Part shown: one piece after another, positions 56,644-61,448 of the stretch | Numbering within the stretch: the first letter of the stretch is position 1 | How the letters are laid out: each line of letters begins with the position of its first letter | Made by a program: the position numbers and the translations under genes | Notes under the pieces: generated by a model | Told to the model about the DNA's origin: nothing | What the model saw: the letters and a program-made list of their open reading frames with translations, nothing else | The model's database searches: none | Source of the DNA: Acidobacteriota bacterium | GTDB lineage: Bacteria > Acidobacteriota > Thermoanaerobaculia > Thermoanaerobaculales > Thermoanaerobaculaceae | Reading direction: 5' to 3' | Assembly: GCA_016213675.1 (NCBI GenBank) | Contig: JACQZW010000039.1 | Coordinates: 1 to 64,000, forward strand | Length of the DNA stretch: 64,000 nt

Positions 56644-56776
56644 GGCCGGTTCTCCCCGTTCAGGTTACACCCGCTCCCCGGATGACCACCGCCGAGGACA
56701 TCCGGCGCCATGCCGTCGATGTGGGCCGTCACGCGTCCTGGCACGCCGCCTGCAAGCAGCTTCTTGGAGGTGCACG

Positions 56777-57679
56777 ATGATCCGCAGGTTCCTGGCACTC
56801 ACCCTGGCCCTCGCAGCCGCCGGCACGGCCGCCGGACGCGAGCTGACCTCGTCCTACGTCATCACGGCGGTGGCCAACACCCCGGGGCTGGATGGAACCG
56901 ACTGGCACTCCGACGTCACCATCTACAACCCGCACGCCTTCGAGCTGCCGATCGTGATGCAGCTCCTGCCCTCGAACCGCAACAACACGGGCGCCGTGCC
57001 GACCGTCGAGCTCTCGGTCCTGCCGTACGAGACCCTCAACCTGTGGGACATCCTCGGCCCCGACGGGTTCGCCGCCCGCGGCAGCACGGGCGCGTTGCTC
57101 GTCTATGCCGACGACCAGCGGATCACCTGCCCGAGCCTGGAGAGCCTGTGTGACTTCGTGGTCTTCGCCCGCACCTACACGCTCAACCCGAGGCAGGGGG
57201 GAGGGGAGTTCGGCCAGGCCGTGCCCGGGTTCCCCGCCAACCTCGGCATGGACTGGACGGTCATGGGCTACCTGCCGCAGGTGTCCGACGACGGCGACTT
57301 CCGGACCAACGTCGGTGTGGCCTCGATAACCCCCGGGTGGGTGAAGGTGAGGACCGACCTCCAGGACCCGGACGGCAACATCATCGATCGGCGCGACCAC
57401 ATGATCCCTCCGTACGGCCACGTCCAGTGGCGACTCGAGCAGGGCGTCACCGGCGGGACCGTCGCGGCGTACATCGTCGAGGCGCCCGACGACGCCATCG
57501 TCTACCCCTACGCCTCGACCGTGAACTGGCAGACCGGCGACGCGGTGAACATCGAGTCGCACCTCACCGCCGTCGGGATCTCGGCGCAGTCGTCGACGAT
57601 GCGGGCGCCGCGCCAGAAGCCGGGGCGGCTCCCGGTCCCGTCGTTCTCCCCGGAAAGGCTCCGGACGCGCGCCCGCTGA
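56777..57679 (+). CDS. Secreted beta-sandwich protein
   Basis: 300 residues. Signal peptide MIRRFLALTLALAAAGTAAG then a beta-rich body: SSYVITAVANTPGLDGTDWH, SDVTIYNPHAFELPIVMQLL, and later FRTNVGVASITPGWVKVR and GTVAAYIVEAPDDAIVYPYA. Similar secreted proteins with 'WHSDVTIYNP' are common in Acidobacteria, with unknown role. TTGGAGGTG precedes the ATG at 56777. The C-terminal tail is basic and Pro-rich. Confidence 0.65.
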   Translation: MIRRFLALTLALAAAGTAAGRELTSSYVITAVANTPGLDGTDWHSDVTIYNPHAFELPIVMQLLPSNRNNTGAVPTVELSVLPYETLNLWDILGPDGFAARGSTGALLVYADDQRITCPSLESLCDFVVFARTYTLNPRQGGGEFGQAVPGFPANLGMDWTVMGYLPQVSDDGDFRTNVGVASITPGWVKVRTDLQDPDGNIIDRRDHMIPPYGHVQWRLEQGVTGGTVAAYIVEAPDDAIVYPYASTVNWQTGDAVNIESHLTAVGISAQSSTMRAPRQKPGRLPVPSFSPERLRTRAR

Positions 57680-57749: not shown

Positions 57750-58895
57750 GTGTCCGATCAAGGGAACCAGCGGTGTCCGCACGTGCTCGTCGGCGTTCGC
57801 GAGGACGAGGCCCGCGAGTGGATCGTCGCTTCGCTCCGCACCGCCCTGCCGGGCGTCGAGATCCGGTCGGCTGCCGACGACGCCGCGGCCGGCGAAGCGT
57901 TGCGCGCGGGGCAGGTGGATGTCCTCCTTTCCGAGTTTCCGGGGAACGACGACGCCGGCGCCCGGTCTGGGCATGGTGAAGGAGACTATGGCGGCGCCTT
58001 CGTCATCGTCCTCGCGGACCCCGGCGCTGGGGGGCAGCTCGTCGGCCTGTCCGGCCGTCCGGCCGACGACTTCCTGCTCAAGCCGGTCCGCATCGAAGAG
58101 CTCGTGATGCGGGTTCAGGCCGGACTGCACCGGGCGGCCGACCCGGTCCGGCTGGCTGAACGGGCCGCCGAGCTCGAGCGACTGGTCGCCCGCCAGAGCG
58201 AGTTCCTCTCCCTGGTCTCCCACGAGATCCGCACGCCGCTATCGGCAATCCAGTCGTCGGCCAACATCCTCCTCCGTTACAGCAGGCAGCGCCCCGAGTC
58301 GGTGGAGCGCTTCGCGCGGGTCATCCACCAGGAGGGGCAGCGACTCACCCGGCTGATCAACAACCTCCTCGACCTCGCCAAGATCGAGTCGGGCGAGGTC
58401 GAGTGGCGCTTCGAGCCGACGCCCTTGGGCGGGATCCTCGATCGGGTCCGCGAGTCGTTCGCCGCGGCGCTCGGCGAGCGCAGTCTCCGCCTATCCGTCG
58501 ACGTACAGCCCGCGCCGCTGGCGCTGATCGTCGACCGGGACAAGCTGACTCAGGTACTCCTCAACCTGGTCTCCAACGCCGTCAAGCACTCACCTGCCGG
58601 TGGAGAGGTCTCGGTGCGCTGCAGCGAGCGTCAGGGAGGCCTGGTCCGTATCGAGGTGGAGGATCAGGGCGACGGCGTCCCCCCGGGCGACGTGGAACGG
58701 ATCTTCGAGCGCTTCCAGCAGCTCGAGAGCGGCGACGAGCGCACTGGAACAGGTTTGGGCCTGGCGATCTCGCGACAGATCGTCGAGCACCACGGCGGAC
58801 GGATCTGGGCCGAGGCGCAGCAGGCCAAGGGTGCCCTCTTCGTAGTCGAGTTGCCGGGTGGGCCCCGTCCCGAGGCGACCGATGGTCCAGTTTGA
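57750..58895 (+). CDS. Histidine kinase with a degenerate receiver-like N-terminus
   Basis: 381 residues, no membrane span. Residues 10-125 fold like a receiver but lack the phospho-acceptor Asp (DVLLSEFPGND in place of LLLD..MP) while keeping the C-terminal Lys-Pro (LLKPVRIEELV). HisKA follows (LSLVSHEIRTPLSAIQSSAN), then HATPase (NLVSNAVKHS, VEDQGDGVPPGDVERIF, GTGLGLAISRQIVEHHGG). As a soluble kinase with a pseudo-receiver it probably responds to a protein partner. The GTPase-kinase gene overlaps its last 14 bases. Confidence 0.9.
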   Translation: MSDQGNQRCPHVLVGVREDEAREWIVASLRTALPGVEIRSAADDAAAGEALRAGQVDVLLSEFPGNDDAGARSGHGEGDYGGAFVIVLADPGAGGQLVGLSGRPADDFLLKPVRIEELVMRVQAGLHRAADPVRLAERAAELERLVARQSEFLSLVSHEIRTPLSAIQSSANILLRYSRQRPESVERFARVIHQEGQRLTRLINNLLDLAKIESGEVEWRFEPTPLGGILDRVRESFAAALGERSLRLSVDVQPAPLALIVDRDKLTQVLLNLVSNAVKHSPAGGEVSVRCSERQGGLVRIEVEDQGDGVPPGDVERIFERFQQLESGDERTGTGLGLAISRQIVEHHGGRIWAEAQQAKGALFVVELPGGPRPEATDGPV

Positions 58896-61059
58896 CAACC
58901 AGTCCAAACAGGTCAAGCTGAAGGTCGTCTACTACGGCCCGGCACTCGGCGGCAAGACGACGAGCCTGCAGCACGTCCACCGGGTCACCGATCCGTCCCG
59001 CCGCACCAAGCTCTACGCGCTCAACACCGCCTCCGACCGGACGCTGTTCTTCGACCTGCTGGCCCTCGACCTTGGGCGGGTTCGGGGGTACCGGGTCACA
59101 CTCCAGCTTTTCACCGTGCCGGGCCAGGTCCAGTACAACGCGACCCGGCGCGCCGTCCTCGCCGGCGCTGACGGCATCGTCTTCGTGGCGGACTCGCAGC
59201 GCGCCCAGGCGAGGGCCAACGAGGAGAGCCTGGCGAACCTGGCGGAGAACCTGCGCTCGAACGGCCTCGATCCCGATGTCATCCCGATCGTCCTGCAGTA
59301 CAACAAGCGCGACCTGCCGGACGCGATGGGACGCGCCGAGGCGGAACGCTCGCTGAACCCGCGCGGGTCGCCGGCGTTTGAGACGGTCGCCACGACCGGG
59401 TTCGGGGTGATGGAAGCCTTCATCGCCATCGTCCAGGCGGCCGTCGTCTCGGTGGGCGACCGGCTCGGTCTGTCGGAGAGGCCGGAGGCGATCCCGAAGC
59501 TCCTGGACAGCGTGCGCGCCGCGCTACTGCCGCTTCTTCCCGGGACCGGGTCGCCGGCCGCGGAGCCGGCGGTGGTGTTGCGCCCGGTCTCCGGCAACGC
59601 GGCCCTGGACCAGGACGAGCTGCTCGCCGAGGCGGTGCGCGCCAACATGGCGATGACGGACCTCACCGCGCGGCTCGACCGGCTGAGCCAGGACCTCGAC
59701 CGCCGCGTCGGGCAGCTCCGTGCCATCAACGAGTTTGGCCGGCTGATGTCGCAGGCCCGGGAGCCCGAAGAGGTCACGTCGGGCATCCTCGATCGGCTGC
59801 TGGCGGACCTTCGCGTCGCCAGCGGGTCGCTGCTCCTGGTGAACGAGGAAGGTGAGCTGGTCGAGATCCTCCGCCGGGGGCTCGAGGCGGAACCGATGCT
59901 GCAGGCGGACAGTGCCGGCCGACCGGCGATCGCGGCTGTTCTGGAGACGAGGCAGCCCGCCGTCACACGCCTGGACGACCTCGAGACCGGCCAGCTCGCC
60001 GCCGCCCCCTGGCTGACGGTGCTCCAGGAGCTCGGACTGGTCGCCGCGCTGGCCGTGCCGCTGGTCGCGCAGGACAGGGCAGTGGGGGTGGTGACCTGCT
60101 ACGCCGACGCGTCGAGAGGCGCGTTTGAGGACGAGGACCTCGAGCTCGCCTCGGTACTGGCGGGCAACGCCGCGACCGCCATGGCCAACGCCCGCGCCTG
60201 GCGCTCGCTCGAGCAGCTCAACCGGTCGCTGGAGGATGCGGTCGCGGCGCGGACCCGCGAGCTCGAGCAGGCGTTGGTGCGCGCCCACGGCCTGGCCGAG
60301 GAGGTGGAGGACCGGAACGCCGAGCTCAAGGCCGCCAACCTCCAGCTTCGCGACCTCGAGCGTCTCAAGGGCGACCTCCTGGACCGGGTCGCACACGAGC
60401 TCAACACGCCGGTCACCGCGATCCAGACGGCGGCGCGCATCCTCGCGAAGTACGAGGAGGTGCCGGCGGAGAGGGCGGCCAGGTTCGTCGGGATCATCGA
60501 GCGCGAGGCGACCCGGCTCGCCGAGCTGATCGCCTCGGCGCTGCAGGCGGTGGTGTTGGGCCTGGCGGAGGGACGGCCGGCCGCGGCGCCGGTCGTGGTC
60601 GCCGACCTGCTCAGGCGGGTGCTGGCGCCGCTCAAGGGCGAGATCAACGAGCGCCGGCTCGCGCTCCAGGTCCGCGTGGCCGCCGGGCTCGACTCGGTCG
60701 AGGGCGACGGCGAGCAGCTCGAGTCGGCGCTGCGGGCGGTGGTGCGCAACGCGGTGGAGTTCAGCCGCGAGGGCGGCGCGGTGACGCTGACGGTGCGGCC
60801 GGTGCGACGAGACGCGGGCTCGTGGGTCGAGATGCGCGTGCAGGACGCCGGCGTGGGGATCGCGCCCGAGGATCTCCCGCACGTCACCGAGGTGTTCTGG
60901 CAGGGCGGCAACATGTTGACCGGCAAGCCGCACGGACTGGGCCTGGGTCTCGCCGTGGCCCGGAGGGTGGCGGAGAACCATGGCGGGGAGCTCGAGATCG
61001 TGTCCGCGCCGGATGCCGGAACCACCGTGACCCTCCTCCTGCCCAGGGGCCCGGCGTAA
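58882..61059 (+). CDS. MglA-like GTPase fused to GAF and histidine kinase domains
   Basis: 725 residues. Residues 1-195 are a small Ras-like GTPase: P-loop YYGPALGGKTTS (Lys25), switch region TVPGQVQYNATRRAVLAGAD (78 onward), VFVADSQ, and NKRDLP at 141-146. A coiled region leads to a GAF-like domain (about 290-430), a second coiled coil, HisKA with DRVAHELNTPVTAIQT (His505) and HATPase (AVVRNAVEFS, VQDAGVGIAPEDLPHV, HGLGLGLAVARRVAENHGG). The P-loop and switch match MglA, the polarity GTPase of gliding and twitching motility. Fusion suggests nucleotide state controls kinase output. Confidence 0.9.
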   Translation: MVQFDNQSKQVKLKVVYYGPALGGKTTSLQHVHRVTDPSRRTKLYALNTASDRTLFFDLLALDLGRVRGYRVTLQLFTVPGQVQYNATRRAVLAGADGIVFVADSQRAQARANEESLANLAENLRSNGLDPDVIPIVLQYNKRDLPDAMGRAEAERSLNPRGSPAFETVATTGFGVMEAFIAIVQAAVVSVGDRLGLSERPEAIPKLLDSVRAALLPLLPGTGSPAAEPAVVLRPVSGNAALDQDELLAEAVRANMAMTDLTARLDRLSQDLDRRVGQLRAINEFGRLMSQAREPEEVTSGILDRLLADLRVASGSLLLVNEEGELVEILRRGLEAEPMLQADSAGRPAIAAVLETRQPAVTRLDDLETGQLAAAPWLTVLQELGLVAALAVPLVAQDRAVGVVTCYADASRGAFEDEDLELASVLAGNAATAMANARAWRSLEQLNRSLEDAVAARTRELEQALVRAHGLAEEVEDRNAELKAANLQLRDLERLKGDLLDRVAHELNTPVTAIQTAARILAKYEEVPAERAARFVGIIEREATRLAELIASALQAVVLGLAEGRPAAAPVVVADLLRRVLAPLKGEINERRLALQVRVAAGLDSVEGDGEQLESALRAVVRNAVEFSREGGAVTLTVRPVRRDAGSWVEMRVQDAGVGIAPEDLPHVTEVFWQGGNMLTGKPHGLGLGLAVARRVAENHGGELEIVSAPDAGTTVTLLLPRGPA

Positions 61060-61448
61060 TGGCAGGGGGTGCGCCGAGCAGGCCGCTCGTGCTGGTCGCC
61101 GACGACGAGCCCAGCATCCGCGAGACGGTGTCATTCATCCTCGAGATGGAGGGCTTCGCGGTGGCCGGGGCCGAGGACGGCGAGCAGGCGCTCGCCGAGA
61201 TCCGGCGACTCCGCCCGCCGGTCGTGCTCCTCGACGGGATGATGCCGCTCCGGGACGGGTTCGACGTCTGCCGGGAGGTGAAGGCCGACCCGGAGCTCGC
61301 CGCGGTCAAGATCGTGATGCTCACGGCGCTCGGGCAGAAGACGGACCGGGAGAAGGCGGTGGCGGCCGGTGCCGACGTCTACATCACAAAGCCCTTCGAC
61401 GAGGACGAGCTGCTGGCGCTGCTGCGAAGGCTCACTGCGGGAAGCTGA
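61059..61448 (+). CDS. Stand-alone response regulator receiver
   Basis: 129 residues. A canonical receiver: VLVADDEPSIRET (acidic pair), VVLLDGMMPLRDGFD with Asp59, KIVMLTALGQ and VYITKPFDEDE with the conserved Lys. No output domain, so it signals by protein contact, like CheY or PilG. Its ATG overlaps the kinase stop (TAATG), making it the natural target of the two upstream kinases. The TGA stop is the first three bases of a 7-bp-period array. Confidence 0.92.
   Translation: MAGGAPSRPLVLVADDEPSIRETVSFILEMEGFAVAGAEDGEQALAEIRRLRPPVVLLDGMMPLRDGFDVCREVKADPELAAVKIVMLTALGQKTDREKAVAAGADVYITKPFDEDELLALLRRLTAGS

Follow-up and report, generated by a model that had tools for sequence, protein, structure and literature searches.

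The window, by which we mean the whole stretch of 64,000 nucleotides that was analysed, contains a gene that encodes an MglA-like GTPase joined in one polypeptide to a GAF domain and a histidine kinase module. This gene lies between a second histidine kinase gene (HK2) and a gene for a receiver. The features of the cluster are as follows.

56774 to 57679, + strand: predicted secreted protein of about 301 amino acids, without an assigned family, start codon inferred; conserved 5' of the fusion gene or of HK2 and the fusion gene
57750 to 58895, + strand: HK2, with a degenerate receiver, a HisKA and a HATPase domain; 14-nt overlap with the fusion gene; His158 and the ATP boxes present in 16/16
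58882 to 61059, + strand: fusion gene, 725 amino acids (MglA-like GTPase, linker, GAF, HisKA, HATPase_c); identified from Pfam, PDB relatives and 33 orthologues in the order
58882 to 59451, + strand: MglA-like GTPase domain, residues 1–190, with the P-loop at 19–27, R53/T54/D58, T78–Q82 and N141-K142-D144; assigned from residue conservation
59452 to 59757, + strand: linker, residues 191–292, recognisable family-wide; its C-terminal end is a conserved predicted helix (ELLAEAVRANMAMTDL...) taken from a low-confidence model
59758 to 60192, + strand: GAF domain, residues 293–437; Pfam match at 293–436
60367 to 60543, + strand: HisKA dimerisation and phosphoacceptor domain, residues 496–554, with His505 at 60394–60396; Pfam and alignment
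60703 to 61047, + strand: HATPase_c ATP-binding domain, residues 608–722; Pfam
61059 to 61448, + strand: stand-alone CheY-like receiver of 130 amino acids whose start lies over the fusion stop codon; acidic pair, D60, T90 and K112 present in 15/15

The open reading frame of the fusion is genuine and uninterrupted. It begins at the conserved ATG at 58882 (MVQF...) and not at the GTG further upstream, at 58858. The receiver starts at the ATG at 61059 or, alternatively, at the GTG at 61056. The GTPase domain matches the Pfam Ras/Arf models at about 1e-5, and its closest relatives in the PDB are MglA from Myxococcus xanthus (E 2e-54) and from Thermus thermophilus (E 2e-50). An initial sequence-only reading had described the gene as an MglA-like GTPase fused to a histidine kinase, and this description is borne out by the intact reading frame, the Pfam domains and the MglA structures among its relatives. 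The motifs quoted in that reading, the P-loop GPALGGKTTS, the switch TVPGQVQYNATR, NKRDLP and His505, were all found as given, and so were the genes for a second kinase and a receiver, which overlap the fusion gene on its two sides in an operon-like arrangement. At 725 residues, with its GAF-HisKA-HATPase extension, the protein falls outside the size range of the single-domain small GTPases (150–240 amino acids). A structure model of the fusion, computed from a two-row alignment, was discarded (pLDDT 43, pTM 0.23), and the helix at the end of the linker is a low-confidence prediction.

Orthologues of the fusion were found in 33 of the 37 genomes of the order, comprising 17/17 in the family of the window and 16/20 in a sister family. 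The search for the GTPase-GAF-HisKA architecture thus showed the arrangement to be conserved. Whole-genome searches of a sample of 396 genomes from across the phylum, made with a profile of the GTPase and linker, turned up long proteins related to the fusion in 92 genomes, which represent 18 families; this count includes matches down to E 1.5e-91, where the score gap is not sharp, and family membership therefore rests on the tree and on the architecture of the fetched loci. A scan of contigs with a single protein query returned one relative only, and the counts given here are those of the whole-genome searches. In a tree built from the GTPase domain only, the 93 members examined fall on one side of a branch with an SH-aLRT support of 99, opposite 13 MglA and extended MglA sequences. 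These members were selected by similarity to the query, so that the tree demonstrates a common GTPase lineage and is no census. The relatives in the sister family and across the phylum rule out a fusion that is limited to the family of the window, and the objection that it might be confined to one assembly falls with them. A search of plasmids returned only a stand-alone ARF-like GTPase from Deinococcus and unrelated kinases.

Conservation within the protein is highest in the GTPase domain, whose mean identity is 80% and 71% for the order's two families, relative to 57–72% and 45–50% for the other regions. Residues K25, T26, T49, R53, T54, F57, D58, T78, V79, P80, G81, Q82, N141, K142, and D144 are identical in 93/93 members. 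These include the intrinsic catalytic arginine (Arg53) and the magnesium ligands Thr54 and Asp58, as the catalytic and magnesium residues were defined for MglA (PMC6785124), and the TxxGQ motif in which Thr78 replaces the aspartate of Ras and separates MglA from Ras (PMC3000849). Of the two phenylalanines of β2, Phe56 is retained in 92/93 and Phe57 in 93/93, and residue 59 is mostly leucine. The fusion family is marked by His33, found in 93/93, where the MglA set has tyrosine or phenylalanine. Position 21 of the P-loop (58942–58944 in the window) is alanine in 61/93 members, including that of the window, whereas most MglA proteins have Gly21. Since the G21V substitution in MglA lowers the turnover of hydrolysis (PMC3000849), the turnover of the fused GTPase may, by analogy, be slow.

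The kinase module shows a different pattern. In the protein from the window the phosphoacceptor His505 is present, together with the ATP-binding boxes N623, DxGxG (655–659), and GxGLGL (685–690). The N, G1, and G2 boxes are retained in all 32 complete members from the order, and in the window's family every one of the 15 full-length loci with HK2 retains His505. In L021, the only locus of this family where HK2 and the receiver are missing, His505 is lost. The sister family has the fusion and no HK2, and of its 15 full-length members 12 carry another residue at position 505 (S, A, L, N, or D). Locus L048 has lost the GAF domain and any recognisable HisKA domain and has kept the GTPase and the HATPase. 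Across the phylum, 31 of the 85 members that could be scored have lost the acceptor histidine; the residue was called by alignment and partly by eye in divergent members. A HATPase domain is detectable in 80 of the 93 members and a receiver in cis in 12; the sensor domains vary. The 13 members without a detectable HATPase include GTPase-GAF and GTPase-PAS proteins, proteins in which only eroded remnants of the kinase are left, and L032 and L076, of which L032 is truncated at a contig end and L076 runs to one. Loss of catalytic residues across homologues, which the sequence-only reading had named as an outcome that would count against it, is therefore found for the kinase (31/85 and 13/93) and is absent from the GTPase (93/93).

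The state of the acceptor histidine agrees with the presence of a receiver partner, defined as a same-strand neighbour or a receiver in cis, in 75 of the 85 scorable members: 46 have both and 29 have neither. Eight members have the histidine and no adjacent receiver on the same strand (L036, L039, L062, L087, L088, L107, L109, and L110), and two have a receiver and no histidine (L065 and L076). In L113 and L114 (genus g221, family f39), both the cis receiver of their relatives and the acceptor histidine have been lost. The raw association is strong (Fisher p 3e-13, before allowing for the tree). On the tree the histidine changes state at least 13 times, and at most four informative pairs remain on well-supported branches, with essentially none in the opposite direction and a median p of 0.25–0.5. 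With so few independent pairs the tree-corrected association is not significant, and a claim of proven co-variation between histidine and receiver was dropped. The distribution suggests that the histidine usually decays where the receiver partner is absent.

HK2 lies directly 5' of the fusion gene in 16 loci and overlaps it in most of them. Its N-terminal receiver domain, degenerate in the window, is recognisable in most orthologues, its SHEIRTP box is invariant (16/16), and its kinase domains score higher than those of the fusion. From their conserved residues, HK2 and the stand-alone receiver of the window look active. HK2 was considered as part of an ancient core of the system and rejected as such, since close orthologues were found in the window's family only, though a downstream kinase is found in other families. 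The order of genes in the window's family is HK2, fusion, (PP2C), receiver. In families f41, f67, f76, and f86 it is mostly PP2C, receiver, fusion, kinase, all in one direction, so that the kinds of parts match and their sequence differs; distant loci with this second order are L070, L083, L091, L097–L099, L105, and L106.

Several other genes recur near the fusion. The gene for the secreted protein (56774–57679, + strand) is the most constant neighbour: 29 of the order's 33 fusion loci have it 5' of the fusion and in the same orientation. An orthologue has no Pfam match, and the protein could be part of the fusion system or independent of it. A GAF-SpoIIE (PP2C) phosphatase gene is located between the fusion and the receiver in L018, L019, L022, L023, L027, and L028 and is divergent in L047; its placement suggests a link to phosphatase signalling of the partner-switch type. 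In 12 loci of the sister family (L033–L044 among others) a DUF4388 (PATAN) gene is found on the opposite strand, 3–4.5 kb past the fusion start. PATAN genes were earlier reported close to mglB homologues (PMC4316618).

No roadblock gene (mglB-like) was found beside the fusion in the neighbourhoods examined, both in the window genome and at loci across the order, in agreement with what had been noted from the sequence. Elsewhere in the window genome there are three roadblock matches, of which one scores under the curated cut-off, and one of the three genes sits in a canonical mglB-mglA pair. The genome encodes four MglA-like proteins. Besides the fusion there are the canonical MglA, whose gene neighbours mglB, and two proteins that carry a long C-terminal extension rich in Pro, Ala, and Glu. 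The extended proteins are encoded in locus L006 (664–2061, − strand, 465 amino acids) and locus L007 (1501–3567, + strand, at least 689 amino acids), and comparable forms are present in other families of the class. Homologues of PilT are also encoded, and the organism is therefore likely to have type IV pili. Since no MglB is encoded near the fusion, control of the fused GTPase by MglB or Frz would be an analogy only.

We class the fusion as a new architecture built on an MglA-like GTPase domain, outside both the single-domain MglA family and the conservons. With MglA from M. xanthus and T. thermophilus it shares about 50% identity in the G domain, Thr78 of TxxGQ, Arg53, Gln82, Thr54/Asp58, and Phe56/Phe57 (PMC6785124, PMC3000849). 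MglA, however, is a stand-alone protein of about 195 amino acids encoded beside mglB, whereas the fused GTPase is the N-terminus of a sensor kinase with no mglB nearby, and its clade is set apart by His33 and often by Ala21. The conservons of the Actinomycetota (CvnA–D) likewise combine an MglA-family Ras-like GTPase with a histidine-kinase-like protein (PMC13343842, PMC4316618), but as separate proteins, with the roadblock protein CvnB and without a response regulator; the fusion is one chain, with a receiver and no roadblock protein in the cluster. The order cvnA-cvnB-cvnC-cvnD is not found at the fusion cluster. The Group 1 Rup proteins are prokaryotic small GTPases whose genes are linked to a histidine kinase or a cyclic-di-GMP enzyme (PMC4316618), but these are separate genes, and the GTPases lack the catalytic glutamine of G3 that is invariant in the fusion family. 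In DivL and other pseudo-histidine kinases, too, a kinase fold that is not active as a kinase has been turned into a signalling module (PMC4211667); DivL has no GTPase, and the fusion of the window retains its histidine. Proteins of more than 240 amino acids were excluded from a survey of Ras-superfamily GTPases in prokaryotes from 2014 (PMC4316618), which would therefore have missed this family. A survey of signalling helices in 2006 considered that element to be incompatible with GTPase-type signalling (PMC1592074), and the linker of the fusion is at most a candidate for such an element. A full-text literature search of partial coverage returned no description of an MglA-kinase fusion, which is accordingly weak evidence of novelty.

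The GTPase is always intact and the kinase is often disabled, and for this reason the kinase part may control the GTPase, and not only the reverse. We therefore favour, with about even confidence, a chimeric switch in which the state of an MglA-type GTPase would be controlled in cis by the attached GAF/histidine kinase module. The GTPase, as the constant part, would be the output and act on targets downstream. The module formed by the GAF domain, the dimerisation domain (DHp), and the catalytic domain (CA), presumably a dimer, would sense a ligand or the phosphorylation of a partner and, through the helical linker, set GTP loading, hydrolysis, or access of partners. In the lineage of the window the module probably functions as a kinase as well; HK2, the fusion, or both would autophosphorylate, and phosphate would pass to or be withdrawn from the stand-alone receiver, so that the states of receiver and GTPase become coupled. 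Phosphotransfer to the receiver would take place wherever the histidine has survived, and in lineages without a receiver the module would usually persist as an ATP-binding pseudokinase that controls the GTPase. We infer the direction of information flow from conservation only, and coupling in both directions is possible.

The opposite direction, in which the GTPase is a sensory input, had been proposed from the sequence. Binding of GTP or GDP would alter the helical linker and switch the fused kinase in its autokinase or phosphatase activity; the kinase would in turn phosphorylate the receiver. The N-terminal placement of the GTPase is typical of input domains, the protein of the window retains His505, its ATP boxes, and a conserved adjoining receiver, and retention of the histidine follows the receiver partner. 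For the window, where HK2 is kept as well, an input to the phosphorelay is possible. It cannot be the function of the whole family, because the histidine or the HATPase is often lost while the GTPase residues never change, and in the GTPase-GAF and GTPase-PAS members there is no kinase that could receive such an input. Overall we regard this explanation as rather unlikely.

It is less likely still that the fusion mainly modulates HK2, either in a heterodimer or by competing for the receiver, with HK2 as the real kinase of the operon. The stronger kinase domains of HK2, its invariant SHEIRTP box, and its position directly upstream would fit this explanation, and there is a precedent in Caulobacter, where the kinase-like protein DivL senses the phosphorylated regulator DivK~P (PMC4211667). 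However, it is precisely in the HK2-bearing family that the fusion keeps its own histidine and a DHp conservation of 72%, and the sister family has the fusion without HK2. An artefact of assembly or gene calling that joined an mglA gene to a kinase gene is refuted by the 33 orthologues in the order, one of them on an independent contig, and by the conserved linker between the domains, and we give it almost no weight.

In the favoured explanation, that of a GTPase controlled in cis, these proteins could form a class of one-protein receptors found across the phylum. The sensor module of a two-component system would have a Ras-like GTPase as its direct output, the phosphorylation of the receiver and the state of the GTPase would be coupled in one polypeptide, and conversion of the kinase module to a pseudokinase regulator of the GTPase would have occurred independently on several occasions. 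We put this wider proposal forward tentatively and with more doubt than confidence. Bacterial G proteins and two-component signalling meet through separate proteins both in M. xanthus, where MglA is acted on by Frz and RomR (PMC3441718), and in the conservons. A covalent fusion that has been kept across the phylum, together with natural variants in which the kinase is dead, makes this link testable in one purified protein.
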